From NCBI RefSeq assembly GCF_002160495.1, contig NZ_NFKR01000006.1:1-64000 (forward strand): a stretch of DNA of 64,000 bases, in the 5' to 3' direction. The position numbers were made by a program, and so were the translations under genes. Position 1 is the stretch's first letter. Each line of letters begins with the position of its first letter. The notes under the pieces are model-generated. The model searched no databases, was not told the DNA's origin, and saw only the letters and a list, made by a program, of their open reading frames with translations. This DNA comes from Erysipelatoclostridium sp. An173 (GTDB taxonomy: Bacteria > Bacillota_I > Bacilli_A > Erysipelotrichales > Coprobacillaceae). Shown here piece by piece: positions 2,790-49,894 of this stretch.

Positions 2790-3025
2790 TAAAATTGTCC
2801 TCCTTTTTTATCTAATCAATATAATACTATTAATCTAATAATAAATAAACATTTTAAGAAAAATATATTATAGATAGAAAAAATTATTAACATTGATATT
2901 AAAATACCGCATTTTTCAAAATAATATGATTATATCGGGAAATTTTTAAATCACAAATTCAAAATGTTATTGTATTTTATAATTTTAATAAAAATTTCTT
3001 TTCATTTATAACTTAATATGATAAT

Positions 3026-3037
3026 ATTGTATACAAT
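3026..3037. promoter_or_regulatory. Perfect 12-bp palindrome in the his operon control region
   Basis: ATTGTATACAAT is its own reverse complement and lies 15 bp before the leader-peptide ATG, just before the Shine-Dalgarno AGAGGTGAT. Its GTATAC core resembles GntR-family operators. It may be an operator or the 5' end of the leader transcript; no regulator can be named. Confidence 0.45.
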
Positions 3038-3052
3038 AAGAGGTGATAAAAA

Positions 3053-3106
3053 ATGAAAGCGATAAAAAATTTACAACAATTACATCACCACCATTGGATT
3101 ACCTAG
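3053..3106 (+). CDS. hisL: Histidine operon leader peptide (HHHH)
   Basis: An ORF too short for usual gene callers encodes MKAIKNLQQLHHHHWIT (17 residues) and stops at TAG 3104-3106. It has a strong Shine-Dalgarno (GAGGTGAT, ending 5 nt before the ATG). Four consecutive His codons (CAT CAC CAC CAT, 3083-3094) sit seven codons from the end, directly before a set of alternative RNA helices and a terminator that precedes hisZ. This is the arrangement of ribosome-stalling leader peptides in amino-acid attenuation: charged tRNA-His shortage stalls the ribosome on the His run. The sequence shows the peptide and hairpins; the mechanism is inferred by analogy with enterobacterial his and trp leaders. 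No T-box motif is visible upstream of hisZ. Confidence 0.88.
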   Translation: MKAIKNLQQLHHHHWIT

Positions 3107-3210
3107 GGTTATATCTTTTATGATACAACCCATTTTGTGCTAAATATTTTTTGGGTGTATCTAATGACAAAATGATTATAGCGAGTCATTAGTAAATGAC
3201 TCGTTTTTTT
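3106..3210 (+). promoter_or_regulatory. his attenuator: alternative helices and intrinsic terminator
   Basis: Terminator: CGAGTCATT (3182-3190) pairs perfectly with AATGACTCG (3195-3203), loop AGTA, then seven T (3204-3210). Antiterminator: CTAATGAC (3161-3168) is fully complementary to GTCATTAG (3185-3192) and would consume the 5' arm of the terminator. Upstream helices: GGGTTATATC (3106-3115) with GATACAACCC (3122-3131), nine of ten pairs; GATACAACCC with GGGTGTATC (3153-3161), one bulge; CATTTTGT (3131-3138) with ACAAAATG (3167-3174), perfect. The first of these begins at the leader stop codon, so a terminating ribosome would mask it while one stalled on the His codons would not. The exact switching order needs folding, because some helices share only one or two bases. 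Confidence 0.82.
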
Positions 3211-3231: not shown

Positions 3232-4209
3232 ATGGAAGAGTTTAAATATTTAATACCAGAAGAAAGCATTGATGCGATTATTAGCAATGTTGGTAAGTTA
3301 AGAGAAATTGAAAATAATCTGCGTACTATCTTTGCTAAAAACAACTATCAAGAAGTATTGATGCCTTCTTTTGAATATGTTGATTTATATACAAAACTAG
3401 ATTGTGGTTTTGATCAAGAAAAGATGTTTCAATATATTAATCATGAAGGAAAAAATGTGGCAATGCGCTGTGATTTTACTATTCCGTTAGCTCGTTTTTA
3501 TTCAACAAATAACTTTAATAATGAAGTCGCTCGTTATTGTTATTTTGGCAAAGTGTATCGTAAAGAAATTATGCATAAAGGTCGCTCTAGTGAGTTTTTC
3601 CAAGGGGGCGTTGAGTTAATCAATAAACCAGGTATTGCTGGTGATAAAGAATGTTTGACGATGATTTTAGAGTCATTACCACATTTAGGATTAAATAATA
3701 TATTACTAGAAATTGGTTCGGCTAAATTTTTTAATCGAATTTGTTATTTAGTGGGGGATAAAGCTGATAAATTAACTGAAATTTTAAAATATCGTAATAT
3801 TAGTGCAATGAAACAGTTTGTAAGTGAAAATGATTTTTCGGATTCATTAAATCAATTATTATTAAAATTACCATTAGCTTTTGGGGATATAAACTTATTA
3901 AATAGTGCAATTTGTAATCTTAATGATCCAATATTATTAGAAGCTTTAAATAATTTAAAAGAATTATATGAGGTATTAGATTGTAATGATCAAATTATTT
4001 TTGATTTAGGAATGGTACCGGCAATGAAATATTATACTGGGTTAATGATTAAAGGTTACTGTGATAAAAGTGCCCAGCCGATTATTTCTGGTGGTCGTTA
4101 TGATGATTTATTACCACGTTTTAATAAAAATGTTGGGGCAATTGGTTTTTGTTATCATATGAATCATATTTTAAAAGCATTGGATAAGGAGGGGGAATTC
4201 AATGATTAA
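3232..4209 (+). CDS. hisZ: ATP phosphoribosyltransferase regulatory subunit
   Basis: This 325-residue class II HisRS-like protein lacks the tRNA-binding C-terminal domain and serves as the regulatory partner of the short-form HisG, step 1 of histidine synthesis. Class II features are visible: motif 2-like [26 protein letters not shown], and the C-terminal [31 protein letters not shown] segment. I chose ATG 3232, behind GGGGGAAATAAA. The longer frame to 3196 would start inside the terminator stem and is not credible. It is the first gene of the his operon and overlaps hisG by 8 bp. A genuine HisRS would be about 420 residues, so this is not hisS. Confidence 0.93.
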
Positions 4210-4837
4210 GATTGCTATTACAAAAGGAAGAATTGAAAAGCAGGTTTGTAAGTTATTACAAGAAGCTAATTATGATATGGAGCCGGTATTTAATAAAGAT
4301 CGCGAACTTTTAATTAAGACCAAAGATGGCATTGAAATGATTTTTGGTAAGGCTAATGATGTTGTAACATTTTTAGAGCATGGAATTGTTGATGTTGGTT
4401 TTGTAGGTAAAGATACTTTAGATGATAGTGATTTTGAAGATTACTATGAATTATTAGATTTAAAAATTGGTAAATGTTATTTTGCAGTTGCCGCCTATCC
4501 TGAATATCGAAATAGAAAATATGTCCGTAGAAAAAGAATTGCAAGTAAATATCCTAAAGTCGCTAAAAGTTATTTTGCTAAAAAACAAGAGGATGTTGAA
4601 ATAATTAAACTAGAGGGTTCAGTAGAATTAGGACCAATCGTCGGAATTAGTGATGCGATAGTTGATATTGTAGAAACCGGATCAACTTTAAAGGCCAATG
4701 GATTAGAAGTAATTGAAAAAATCAGTGACATTTCAACTAGAATGATCGTAAATAAAGTAAGTTTAAAATTTAAAAAGGATGAAATTTTTGATTTAGTTAA
4801 TAAATTAGAAGCAGTAACGGGGGAAGAAAAATGTTAA
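4202..4837 (+). CDS. hisG: ATP phosphoribosyltransferase, short form
   Basis: The 211 residues match the short HisG (HisGS), which needs HisZ and condenses ATP with PRPP to phosphoribosyl-ATP. The N-terminal [12 protein letters not shown], the [13 protein letters not shown] segment and the PRPP-loop region [23 protein letters not shown] are present, and the C-terminal regulatory domain of long HisG is absent. Start ATG 4202 overlaps the end of hisZ, with GGAGGGGG just upstream. It overlaps hisD by 7 bp, which suggests translational coupling. Confidence 0.95.
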
Positions 4838-6141
4838 AAGTAATTGAATACAACGGTAATTTAGAAGCAGTTGCTTTAAAACTTGATAATCGAAAAGAAA
4901 ATATTAGTAAAGAAGTTAATGATGCGGTAATGAAAATTATTGATGATATTAATAAGCGGGGGAATGAAGCATTATATGAATATTGTTTAAAGTTTGATGG
5001 TTATCAAATAAAAGATGAAGCAGATTTAATTGTTAGTGAAGCAGAAAAAGAAATTGCTTTAAAGCAAGTAGATGCTAATTATTTACGAATTCTAGAAAGA
5101 ACAAAAGAACAGATAATTGAATTTCATAAAAATCAAATTGATAAATCATGGTCTTTATTTAAAGAAAATGGCGTTATTATGGGGCAAATGGTTCGTCCTA
5201 TTGAACGAGTTGCTTTATATGTTCCAGGGGGAACTGCTTGTTATCCATCAACGGTATTAATGAATGCTTTACCAGCTAAACTGGCTGGAGTTAAAGATTT
5301 AGTTATAATTACGCCGGTAAAAGAAGATGGTAAAGTAAATCCAATTATTATAGCAGCTGCAAAAGTTTGTGGCATTGATACAATTTATAAATTTGGAGGA
5401 GCTCAAGGTATTGCAGCTATTGCTCATGGCACTCAAACAATAAAAAAAGCTGATAAGATAGTTGGACCAGGAAATATCTATGTTGCTACTGCTAAAAAGT
5501 TAAGTTATGGCTTAGTAGATATTGATATGGTAGCTGGACCTAGTGAAGTTTTAGTAATTGCTGATGAAAATGCTAATAGCAAATATATTGCTGCTGATTT
5601 AATTAGTCAGGCTGAACATGATAAATTAGCTAGTGCGATGTTAGTAACAACAAGTAAAAGTTTAGTTGATCAAGTTAATCAAGAATTAAAACGTCAGATT
5701 GCTTATCTATCACGAAAAGAAATTATTGAAGAATCTTTAGCTAATTATGGTGGGGCGATAATTGTTGATAATATTGATCAGGCTTTTGAGGTTTCTAATT
5801 ATTTAGCACCTGAACACTTAGAAGTATTAGTTGATAATCCAGTAAATTGTCTTCCTAAAATTAAAAATGCCGGTTCTATCTTTTTAGGTGAATATTCACC
5901 AGAACCATTAGGAGACTATATGAGTGGAACTAATCATGTTTTACCTACTGGAGGAACCGCTAAATTTTATTCAGCTTTAGGAGTATACGATTTTGTCAAA
6001 TATTCATCATATAGTTATTATCCTAAGGATGTTTTAGCTACTTTTAAAGATGATGTTATGGCATTTGCGAAAAGTGAAGGGTTAGATGGACACGCTAATT
6101 CAATTGCAGTGCGTTTTGAGGAGGATTACGATGAGAACTAG
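4831..6141 (+). CDS. hisD: Histidinol dehydrogenase
   Basis: The product is 436 residues. The enzyme carries out the two NAD-dependent oxidations from histidinol to histidine, with a zinc ion. Visible signatures are [20 protein letters not shown], the [13 protein letters not shown] region, [28 protein letters not shown] and [10 protein letters not shown]. Full length for the family. The ATG overlaps the end of hisG. The last 11 bp overlap hisB, whose Shine-Dalgarno GAGGA lies inside hisD. Confidence 0.96.
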
Positions 6142-6718
6142 TAAAATAGAACGTAAAACTTTAGAAACATCTATTTACGTTGACTTAAATCTTGATGGAA
6201 CTGGAAAAAGTGATATTGATACTGGAATAGGTTTTTTCGACCATATGCTTACATTATTAGCTTTTCATAGTAATTTTGATTTAACGGTTAAGTGCGATGG
6301 TGATTTAAAAGTTGATTGCCATCATACTATCGAGGATCTAGGAATTGTTTTAGGAACTTGTTTAAAAGAAGCGTTGAATGATAAAAAAGGTATTAAACGC
6401 TATGGATCTTTTACAATTCCAATGGATGAAACATTAGTAACTACTAATTTAGATATTAGTGGTCGACCTTATTTAGTATTTAATGTTAACTTGACTTGTG
6501 AAAGAATTGGAACTTTTGAAACAGAGATGGCAGTAGAATTCTTTAGAGCATTTGCATTTAATTCTTTAATAACTTTGCACATTAATCAACATTACGGTAC
6601 CAATAATCATCATATTGTTGAGGCGGTTTTTAAAAGCTTAGGTAGAGCTTTAAAAGAAGCTGTAAGTATTGATGAAGCTAATAAAGATAAAATAGTATCT
6701 TCAAAAGGCGTTTTATAG
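6131..6718 (+). CDS. hisB: Imidazoleglycerol-phosphate dehydratase
   Basis: The 195-residue monofunctional IGP dehydratase makes imidazole-acetol phosphate. The metal-binding motifs are visible: FFDHMLTLLAFHSNFDL, DCHHTIEDLGI in the N-terminal half and HYGTNNHHIVEAVFKSLGRAL in the C-terminal half. No phosphatase domain is fused, unlike the enterobacterial bifunctional form, so histidinol phosphatase must be separate. I use ATG 6131, with GAGGATTACG just before it; the upstream ATG at 6086 is inside hisD and has no ribosome binding site. Confidence 0.95.
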   Translation: MRTSKIERKTLETSIYVDLNLDGTGKSDIDTGIGFFDHMLTLLAFHSNFDLTVKCDGDLKVDCHHTIEDLGIVLGTCLKEALNDKKGIKRYGSFTIPMDETLVTTNLDISGRPYLVFNVNLTCERIGTFETEMAVEFFRAFAFNSLITLHINQHYGTNNHHIVEAVFKSLGRALKEAVSIDEANKDKIVSSKGVL

Positions 6719-6730
6719 GAGGAAAAGACC

Positions 6731-7339
6731 ATGGTTGTTATTATAGATTATAATATTGGTAATTTAAGTAGTGTTATTTCAGCATTAAAAAGAGTTGGCA
6801 TTGATGCTATTATTTCTCGTGATAAAAAAGTAATTGAAAAAGCTAAGGCTATTGTTTTACCAGGAGTTGGTACTTTTCCAGTGGCAATGAATAATTTGAA
6901 AAAATATGATTTAATAGATGTTTTAACAAAACAAAAAGAAGCTGGAATACCAATTTTAGGAATATGTTTAGGGATGCAAATTTTATTTGAAAAAGGTTAT
7001 GAAGTCCAAGAAACACCAGGACTAGGCTTTTTAAAAGGTGAAGTAGTGTATATGGATATTGATGAAAAAGTTCCTCATATGGGATGGAATCAATTACATT
7101 TTAATCAAAAACATCCGATTTTAAAATATATTCATGAAAATGATGATGTTTATTTTGTTCATTCATTTATGGCTAAATGTCCTGATGAAGAGTTAGTTGC
7201 TTACAGCGATTATGGTAGTACCAATATTACTGCAATTGCTTCAAAAGATAATGTAATTGGATGTCAATTTCATCCAGAAAAAAGTGGAACAGTTGGTAAA
7301 AAAATACTCTTAGCGTTTAAGGAGATGATCGAATGTTAA
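6731..7339 (+). CDS. hisH: Imidazole glycerol phosphate synthase, glutaminase subunit
   Basis: This class I glutamine amidotransferase (202 residues) supplies ammonia to HisF. It begins with the family signature VIIDYNIGNLSSV. The nucleophile is Cys79 in GICLGMQILFE, and the His-Glu pair of the triad is in the C-terminal FHPEKSG. ATG 6731 follows TAGGAGGAAAAGACC. It overlaps hisA by 7 bp. Confidence 0.96.
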   Translation: MVVIIDYNIGNLSSVISALKRVGIDAIISRDKKVIEKAKAIVLPGVGTFPVAMNNLKKYDLIDVLTKQKEAGIPILGICLGMQILFEKGYEVQETPGLGFLKGEVVYMDIDEKVPHMGWNQLHFNQKHPILKYIHENDDVYFVHSFMAKCPDEELVAYSDYGSTNITAIASKDNVIGCQFHPEKSGTVGKKILLAFKEMIEC

Positions 7340-8058
7340 TTATTCCAGCAATAGATTTAAAAGATGGACAAGCTGTAAGATTATATAAAGGTGATTATAA
7401 TCAAAAAACTGTCTACAGTAAAAATCCTGAAGAATTAGCAATAGCTTTTGAAAAAATGGGAGCTAAGATCCTTCATGTTGTTGATTTAGATGGAGCAAAA
7501 GATGGAAAGTGTGTTAATTTAGAAGCAATCAAGAAAATAAAACAAGCAACTAAAATGGCTATTGAATTAGGCGGTGGAATCAGAAATATGGATACAGTGG
7601 ATTTGTATCTAGAAGAAATTGGTATTGACCGCGTTATTCTAGGAACTGCAGCAATAAATGATCCTGATTTTTTAAAAATGGCATTAAAGAAATATGGTTC
7701 AAAGAAAATTGTTGTTGGCGTTGATGTTAAAGATGGATATGTATCAACTTCAGGCTGGTTAGAAACAAGTAATGTGCCTTATTTAGATTTTATTTTAGAA
7801 TTAGAAAAAATAGGAATTGAATATATTGTGGTTACAGATATTAGTAAAGATGGTACTTTACAAGGTCCTAATTTTAAAATGTATGAAAAAATTAAAGCGG
7901 CAAGCTCAATTAATTTTGTGGTTTCTGGTGGGGTAAAAGATATTGATAATATTGAAGAAACAGCTAAAAATAATTATTATGCTTGTATTGTAGGAAAGGC
8001 ATATTATGAAGGAAAAGTTGATCTAAAGGAGGCTATTGCATGCTTACAAAAAGAATAA
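7333..8058 (+). CDS. hisA: Phosphoribosylformimino-AICAR-phosphate isomerase (ProFAR isomerase)
   Basis: This 241-residue (beta/alpha)8 barrel converts ProFAR to PRFAR by an Amadori rearrangement. The N-terminal [19 protein letters not shown], the phosphate-binding LGGGIRNMD and the second-half [15 protein letters not shown] and [12 protein letters not shown] are all present; Asp8 and the later Asp are the expected acid/base residues. It overlaps hisH by 7 bp and hisF by 19 bp, the largest overlap in the operon. Confidence 0.96.
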
Positions 8059-8804
8059 TTCCTTGTTTAGATATTAAAAATGGCAAGGTTGTAAAAGGAG
8101 TAAATTTTGTTGGATTAAAAGATGTTGGTGATCCAATCGAACTTGCTAAACGATACGACCAGCAATGTAGTGATGAAGTAGTATTTTTAGATATCACTGC
8201 TAGTTATGAACAGCGAGATATTATAAAAGATCTTATTGAACGTGGTGCTAAAGAACTTAGTATTCCACTTGCAGTAGGAGGCGGAATTAGAACTATTGAT
8301 GATTTTAGGATGATTTTAGCTAGTGGGGCTGATAAAGTATCTGTTAATTCGGCAGCTATTGCTAATCCTGATTTAATTAAAGAAGCTGCTGATGAATTTG
8401 GGGTTCAATGTGTTGTCGTTGCTATTGATGCTAAAAAAAGAGCATCAGGAGGATACGATGTTTATGTTAAAGGTGGTCGTGAAAATACTGGAATTGATTT
8501 AATTGAATGGGTAAAAAAATGTCAGGAACTTGGAGCTGGTGAAATATTATTAACTTCAATGGATGCTGATGGTACTAAAGCTGGATATGATATTGATATG
8601 ATTAACGCTGTTTGTGATGTTGTCGATATCCCAGTTATCGCCAGTGGTGGTTGTGGCAGTATCCAGGATATTGTTGATGTTTTTAAAAAGACTAACTGCG
8701 ATGCCGCTTTAGTTGCTTCGTTATTTCATTTCGGTGAAGCAACTGTTGAACAGGTTCGTCAAGAATTACGTAAAGAAGGAATTAATGTTAGGAGGGCAAT
8801 TTAA
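8040..8804 (+). CDS. hisF: Imidazole glycerol phosphate synthase, cyclase subunit
   Basis: The 254-residue barrel uses HisH-derived ammonia to make imidazole-glycerol phosphate and releases AICAR (ZMP), the intermediate that PurH in the purine operon at 54.6 kb consumes. Motifs: [52 protein letters not shown] and [13 protein letters not shown] 8040 is preceded by CTAAAGGAGGCTATTGC inside hisA. The stop codon shares its last base with the hisIE start. Confidence 0.96.
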
Positions 8805-9442
8805 TGAAACCTGATTTTAAAAAGATGGAATTAATTCCAGCAATCGTACAAGATTATCAAACTAATCAAATACTAATGCTTGCCTATGTAAATGAGGAAG
8901 CTTATAATAAAATGCTTGAAACTAAGCAAACATATTTTTATTCACGTTCACGTAAACAATTGTGGCATAAAGGAGAAACATCAGGACATTTCCAAAATAT
9001 AAAAGGAATGTATTTAGACTGTGATTTAGATACTTTATTGATTTTTGTTGAACAAATTGGGGTTGCTTGTCATACTGGGGCTTATTCATGTTTCTTTAAT
9101 GAAGTATTGCCTTTTGATAATACTAATATTTTTAGAAGTTTAGAAAAATTAATTGCTAATCGTAAACAAAATCCAGTTGAAAAATCTTATACTAACTATT
9201 TATTGGATCAAGGTGTTGATAAAATATGTAAAAAAGTTGGCGAAGAGGCAAGTGAAACAATTATTGCTGCTAAAAACAATGATAAAGATGAATTGATTGG
9301 TGAAATAAGTGATTTGTTTTATCATGTCTTTGTTTTAATGAATAATCAAGGTGTTTCTTTGGATGATGTTGAAAATAAATTGAAAGAACGGCATAAAATT
9401 ACTGGAAATAAAAAAGAATTTCATACTCGAGGAGAGTATTAA
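8804..9442 (+). CDS. hisIE: Bifunctional phosphoribosyl-AMP cyclohydrolase / phosphoribosyl-ATP pyrophosphatase
   Basis: The 212 residues hold two fused domains for steps 2 and 3. HisI (about 1-115) shows [15 protein letters not shown], the metal-site [21 protein letters not shown] and SCFF. HisE (about 120-212), a MazG-like helical pyrophosphatase, shows [19 protein letters not shown] and the [11 protein letters not shown] helix. ATG 8804 overlaps the hisF stop by one base and follows TTAGGAGGGCAATTTA. It is the last gene of the operon; a terminator follows within 30 bp. No hisC or hisJ/hisK is present here. Confidence 0.95.
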
Positions 9443-13799: not shown

Positions 13800-14047
13800 T
13801 GCCAACGACGTTGAAAAGAAGAGTAGTTTATATTAGCTTGATAGAGAGTTCTTGGCTGGTGGAAAAGAATAAGCGAGGATAAATGAAGATGGTCTTGGAG
13901 TCTTATAGGCGATATTTAGTCTATAACGGGAGCGCCCGTTATTGCGCTAGAGTATGATGGTACTCGATGAGGTTATTATTGTAAGATAATAATAAATTAA
14001 GGTGGTAACACGGGTGATGCTCGTCCTTAGATAGGACGGGTTTTTTT
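13800..14047 (+). promoter_or_regulatory. T-box riboswitch, methionine type
   Basis: The leader has the T-box sequence AAGGTGGTAACACGG (13999-14013), whose UGGU bulge would pair with a tRNA ending ACCA, followed by an intrinsic terminator (CTCGTCCT 14020-14027 with AGGACGGG 14033-14040, then seven T). Stem I carries an AGTAG motif near 13820 and a specifier region GGATAAATGAAGATGG. The AUG at 13883-13885 fits tRNA-Met and matches the methionine-uptake genes downstream. Uncharged tRNA-Met would stabilise the antiterminator and turn metNIQ on. Confidence 0.92.
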
Positions 14048-49786: not shown

Positions 49787-49794
49787 GCAAATAG

Positions 49795-49894
49795 TTATAC
49801 GACTGACGGAAGTGGAATTAACCACAGGGAGTATAATCGTGTAAGAGCCGACCGTCTGGGCCAAAGTAGTCTAGATGGTGCACGGCTCTTTTTT
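49795..49894 (+). promoter_or_regulatory. ZTP (pfl) riboswitch with terminator
   Basis: The conserved ZTP aptamer features are present in order: GACTGACGGAAGTGG, AACCAC, GGGAGT and the pseudoknot block GCCGACCGTCTGGGC. Terminator: AAGAGCCG (49843-49850) pairs with CGGCTCTT (49883-49890), followed by T residues. ZMP/ZTP binding is expected to disrupt the terminator and turn on fhs and the purine genes when 10-formyl-THF is short. Confidence 0.95.

Follow-up and report, generated by a model that had tools for sequence, protein, structure and literature searches.

A conserved His-codon leader and candidate attenuator upstream of the hisZGDBHAF(IE) operon in Erysipelatoclostridium sp. An173 and its family

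Introduction

The his leader of E. coli carries seven His codons, compared with four in the leader described here, which lies upstream of hisZ in Erysipelatoclostridium sp. An173. The E. coli and Salmonella his leader (RF00514, His_leader) and the present one share a His-codon peptide, competing hairpins and an intrinsic terminator, with the codons taking part in the termination-side fold. The RF00514 covariance model gave no match at our site, even at a permissive threshold, and a search of Firmicutes with RF00514 is likewise described in PMC9413887 as giving no match. The present leader probably arose independently of the E. coli/Salmonella his leader.

Within the Bacillota, Naville and Gautheret (2010; PMC2965389) reported that histidine leader peptides precede hisZ in bacilli, as well as hisS*, a paralogue of hisS. 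Compared by description, those leaders also place His codons before hisZ where a T-box has been replaced, and they belong to the Bacillus lineage. The candidate His attenuators reported by Ashniev et al. (2022; PMC9413887) come from the Bacillus cereus group, five Eubacteriales and six species of Erysipelotrichales, in the last case from the genera Eggerthia, Erysipelatoclostridium, Catenibacterium, Coprobacillus and [Clostridium]. As described there, the order, the operon, the 3-5 consecutive His codons and the terminator and antiterminator hairpins are all as in our case, and Eggerthia, which they name, belongs to the host family and carries the leader found here. The likeness is drawn from their genus list and description; their set comprises six Erysipelotrichales species, whereas ours comprises 39 genomes in 17 genera, a covariance model and an additional helix, A:3. 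An earlier note on this DNA had regarded His leader peptides as a rarity in Bacillota, a view already outdated by the reports of 2010 (PMC2965389) and 2022 (PMC9413887).

Two further systems help to place the locus. The ilv-leu attenuator peptide of Staphylococcus aureus (PMC5794164) is a mutant-supported case of leader-peptide attenuation in place of a T-box in Bacillota, but it relies on Ile/Leu codons and its RNA is unrelated to the his leader here. The T-box (RF00230) senses uncharged tRNA by direct binding, with no need for translation; it stands before hisZ in the sister family and is absent here.

The leader is well supported and of a kind already known, and so mostly not new. What we add is the A:3 helix, the near-universal presence of the leader in the family, and three further lineages with His leaders. 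The locus is a firm case of amino-acid attenuation in the manner of E. coli among Gram-positive gut anaerobes for which the T-box is otherwise the usual device, and two sister families that control the same operon by a T-box and by a leader peptide amount to a natural experiment on the replacement of a tRNA-charging sensor.

Results

The his operon and its HisZ

The window, that is, the whole stretch of 64,000 nucleotides that was analysed, belongs to a genome of 2.93 Mb and contains the following his genes.

3232..4209, + strand: hisZ, first gene of the operon, a short HisZ of 325 aa; best family TIGR00443, below its cut-off
4202..4837, + strand: hisG (TIGR00070)
4831..6141, + strand: hisD (TIGR00069)
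6131..6718, + strand: hisB (NF002111; profile match from about residue 16 of the mechanical ORF at 6086)
6731..7339, + strand: hisH (TIGR01855)
7333..8058, + strand: hisA (TIGR00007)
8040..8804, + strand: hisF (TIGR00735)
8804..9442, + strand: hisIE (NF002747)

Against TIGR00443 the HisZ scored 223 bits, with a curated cut-off of 272 bits. Its nearest named relatives are from Thomasclavelia (83 % identity in T. cocleata, 81 % in T. saccharogumia and 86 % in a Thomasclavelia MAG). HisZ of the host family is about 50 % identical to HisZ of uncultured clostridia and Lactococcus and about 30 % identical to that of the sister family, f2, and these identities suggest that the operon may have been replaced in the host family. 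Long branches and poor resolution in the HisZ tree leave both the number of leader origins and the operon replacement unsettled. No HisZ relatives were found in viral contigs.

The leader ORF and its RNA segments

Between the promoter and hisZ, the following elements were assigned.

3017..3027, + strand: putative extended -10 promoter TATGATAATAT (TGnTATAAT type); a TGnTATAAT-like element lies in the same place in most relatives
3039..3045, + strand: Shine-Dalgarno AGAGGTG of the leader ORF; almost every relative has a GAGGTG-type site before the leader's ATG
3053..3106, + strand: leader peptide ORF MKAIKNLQQLHHHHWIT with its stop, 17 codons; read directly and conserved in relatives
3083..3094, + strand: His codons CAT CAC CAC CAT, presumed stall site; conserved across the host family
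3092..3105, + strand: segment A, codon region CATTGGATTACCTA, pairing with 3152-3166 (A:3, the putative termination-promoting protector); from the predicted fold and a synonymous-codon test
3106..3115, + strand: segment 1 GGGTTATATC, starting at the last base of the stop codon; pairs with segment 2
3122..3131, + strand: segment 2 GATACAACCC, partner segment 1 or 3a
3152..3161, + strand: segment 3a TGGGTGTATC, partner A or 2; 2:3a changed on both sides in relatives
3161..3168, + strand: segment 3b CTAATGAC, antiterminator 5' strand
3182..3192, + strand: segment 4 CGAGTCATTAG, antiterminator 3' strand and terminator 5' arm
3195..3210, + strand: segment 5 AATGACTCG with U tract TTTTTTT, terminator 3' arm

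The leader stop codon is TAG (3104-3106), and transcription would be expected to start near 3034, judging from the promoter sequence. The string CAYCAYCAYCAY is common in the host genome, with 47 occurrences on both strands; the His codons alone are therefore little proof, and it is their conservation that is decisive.

The earlier note had described a 17-residue ORF with four His codons, a 9-bp terminator and an 8-bp antiterminator before hisZ, and all of these hold to the base. The terminator, CGAGTCATT-AGTA-AATGACTCG (3182-3203), is a perfect 9-bp hairpin followed by seven T, and the competing helix pairs CTAATGAC (3161-3168) with GTCATTAG (3185-3192) over a perfect 8 bp. One terminator-like site was found against 0.1 expected in shuffles, and the leader fold is more stable than its shuffles (z = -3.4, none of 200 as good), so that neither the terminator nor this stability is to be put down to chance. 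Both hairpins of the two-hairpin picture stand, but the picture is incomplete. It missed hairpin 1:2, which spans 3106-3131 and begins on the leader stop codon, and it lacks the A:3 helix on which a stalled ribosome could act. Segment A consists of the codons His4-Trp-Ile-Thr-stop, and in the fold of the leader A:3 encloses hairpin 1:2. By joining the last codons to the antiterminator strand, A:3 gives a stalled ribosome a possible means of switching the fold.

Directly after hairpin 1:2, the string CATTTTG (3131-3137) is nearly invariant in the family and has no conserved pairing partner; it may be a pause signal that keeps polymerase and ribosome in step. A CATTTTGT:ACAAAATG helix taken from the fold of the window was dropped, as relatives do not keep the pairing.

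Conservation and covariation in the host family

HisZ is present in 40 of the 43 genomes of the host family. The covariance model R1, which we built from 38 leaders of the family, matches 39 of the 43 genomes (17 genera), once in each and always before hisZ, with the His-rich leader at a roughly constant distance upstream of the gene. In the fortieth hisZ-bearing genome (G039) the contig starts inside hisZ and the upstream DNA is missing; R1 and the leader were found in every family genome whose hisZ-upstream DNA is present. R1 gave no match in the three family genomes without hisZ and none in the 252 genomes searched from the rest of the order. The stretch read in G318 contains no his gene, and the R1 match there (35 bits) was deemed a chance hit.

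Except in L050, every family leader retains either HRHHH or 4-5 His codons. In L050 (G007) the leader has decayed to HRH, with only two His codons, and its stop lies past segment 1, while the hairpins are intact.

In alignment A1, helices 1:2 and 3:4 are paired in 97.5 % of cells, compared with 28-46 % when slid by 1-3 columns. Taken singly, 1:2 is paired in 99.4 % of cells (38 sequences) and 3b:4 in 95.3 %, the latter with a GC pair replaced by AU in three sequences. The alternative helices 2:3 and 4:5 are paired in 92.8 % of cells, compared with 25-37 % when slid; five of their pairs are altered on both sides, and none of 500 shuffles reached as high. These family counts are not independent trials, because the sequences are related. 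At a fixed register, A:3 is paired in 83.9 % of cells and covariation was not seen, so its support comes from a synonymous-codon test, in which the natural codons beat the mean synonymous coding for pairing with segment 3 in 36 of 38 leaders, with a mean gain of 2.6 kcal/mol. Where the peptide ends in HHHHRHT or HRHHHRT, A:3 is kept by a shifted register (pairing about -12 versus -8 in L053, L055 and L057, and -10.2 versus -6.7 in L052 and L054). The attenuator reading of the earlier note, which had been staked on conserved His codons and on compensatory changes in the helices, survives on both counts: the codons are kept across 17 genera and the compensatory changes are present.

Proposed mechanism and rival explanations

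The locus has a His-run ORF upstream of his genes, an intrinsic terminator and a covarying, mutually exclusive antiterminator, as his-type attenuators do. The fold, the synonymous codons and ribosome masking further place the leader codons in A:3, where a stalled ribosome would disrupt the pairing. Very probably the leader is a translation-coupled attenuator that senses charged tRNA-His through its His codons and controls hisZGDBHAF(IE); for the exact helix order of the scheme that follows, our confidence is moderate. We infer leader translation, ribosome stalling, a kinetic folding order and histidine-dependent read-through. When histidine is replete, the ribosome would complete the 17-codon leader and depart, A would pair with segment 3 around hairpin 1:2, so that segment 3 is hidden, and segments 4 and 5 would form the terminator, ending transcription before hisZ. 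Under starvation, the ribosome would wait at the four His codons and cover A; segment 3 would be freed, 3a could pair with 2, and 3b would pair with 4 (CTAATGAC:GTCATTAG), blocking the terminator and letting the operon be read.

We folded truncated RNAs with and without a masking ribosome. In the RNA ending after segment 3, the mean probability of A:3 was 0.83 without a ribosome and, according to the assumed stalled codon and footprint, 0-0.47 with a ribosome on the His codons, and 2:3a rose from 0.15 to 0.44-0.99; in the RNA ending after segment 4, mean 3b:4 rose from 0.37 to 0.57-0.74. As modelled, this folding fits the classical logic, in which no stall would give A:3 and the terminator and a stall would give 3b:4 and read-through. 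For almost all sequences the full-length leader preferred the terminator by several kcal/mol, and ribosome masking gave no consistent shift. Because the full-length equilibrium favours the terminator, the switch could work only kinetically, with the choice made during transcription. Computed 3b:4 was highest (0.97) when the ribosome sat on the stop codon, and the model therefore needs fast release there.

The stop codon is also the centre of a different logic, which was our initial model. A ribosome at the stop would cover segment 1, so that 2:3 forms and the terminator follows, while a His stall would permit 1:2 and hence 3:4 antitermination. In nearly all relatives the start of segment 1 coincides with the stop codon, and in most clostridial relatives 2:3 and 3:4 overlap and are mutually exclusive, which speaks for this logic. 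In the host family, however, 2:3a and 3b:4 can coexist, with hardly any overlap, and once folding had shown this, stop-codon masking was demoted as the main switch; moreover, the strong 3b:4 pairing computed for a ribosome on the stop codon amounts to antitermination. We regard this logic as unlikely. The conservation of Q and W around the His run, beyond the needs of codon counting, would suit a nascent Q-L/F-HHHHW arrest peptide that stalls the ribosome on a free ligand, as in TnaC, and not on uncharged tRNA-His. However, some divergent members lack W and Q (HHHHRHT, HHHHHAMT), and 4-5 His codons ahead of his genes indicate tRNA charging. RNA pairing is the better explanation of the W, because several divergent members keep A:3 through other codons, and an arrest peptide is very improbable.

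Control of termination by an RNA-binding protein on hairpin 1:2 and CATTTTG, with translation uninvolved, could account for segments 1 and 2 being nearly invariant beyond what pairing requires. Yet segment 2 has several pairing partners, which is enough to freeze its sequence, and a protein would leave the conserved His ORF without a reason; we see very little chance indeed of such control. As for a T-box or metabolite riboswitch beside an incidental short ORF, the T-boxes before hisZ in the sister family give it a precedent, but a permissive threshold still brought no match to such a family at the site, and conservation extends to the ORF, its ribosome-binding site and the run of His codons. 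The T-box reading is refuted by the Rfam scans of the site, which returned no T-box match, just as the earlier note had held, and no match to any other Rfam family, and there is next to no probability left for this alternative as a whole. Translation-coupled attenuation by the His codons is the reading that we retain.

T-boxes in the host genome and in the sister family

The host genome has 20 T-box matches, 16 of them above the curated cut-off. One precedes hisS, and others precede trpE, leuA and argC, as judged from downstream proteins read by eye. The T-box that the earlier note had placed before metNIQ in the same window is borne out by an Rfam match:

13802-14031: T-box leader before metNIQ

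The use of both strategies in one genome is likewise real, given the his leader together with the 20 T-box matches elsewhere. With a T-box at hisS and the his leader (L009), the histidine genes of a single cell are probably under two kinds of tRNA-charging sensor. The window also holds a ZMP/ZTP riboswitch (RF01750) at 49789-49868 on the + strand.

In the sister family f2, an Rfam T-box lies in 18 of the 20 hisZ upstream regions examined (L153-L172), and the remaining two carry a His leader (L170) and neither element (L172). Three f2 loci were inspected and have the order hisZ-hisG-hisD, two of them with a T-box. Because the elements upstream of hisZ differ in this way, the same operon is read by a T-box in f2 and by a leader peptide in the host family.

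His leaders in other lineages

VHHH or LHHH leaders precede hisZ in ten MAGs of uncultured clostridia (L088, L090, L094-L101), and most of these show the chain A:3, 1:2, 2:3, 3:4, 4:5 in unrelated sequence. Further His leaders, MFTILISVHHHHSTT, MKSINLVQVHHHW, MTNILLKANAHHHHT and MNILAKGHHHHHT, precede hisZ-hisG-hisD in L183 (G724), L191 (G346), L185 (G125) and L188 (G167), respectively. L183 and L191 belong to family f9 of the same class, and L185 and L188 to genus g64 within f2.

The clostridial MAGs, f9 and g64 are not named in the abstract or Table 3 of PMC9413887, although some of these lineages could overlap its Eubacteriales group. We give an even chance to a broader history, in which His attenuators of one topology repeatedly replaced T-boxes or other hisZ control in Bacillota lineages, including the three unnamed in that abstract and table, and partly travelled with the short-type hisZ operon. 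R2, a sequence-only model of the clostridial leaders, gave weak and mostly chance-level matches across the phylum; its match in G346 precedes hisZ with a His leader.
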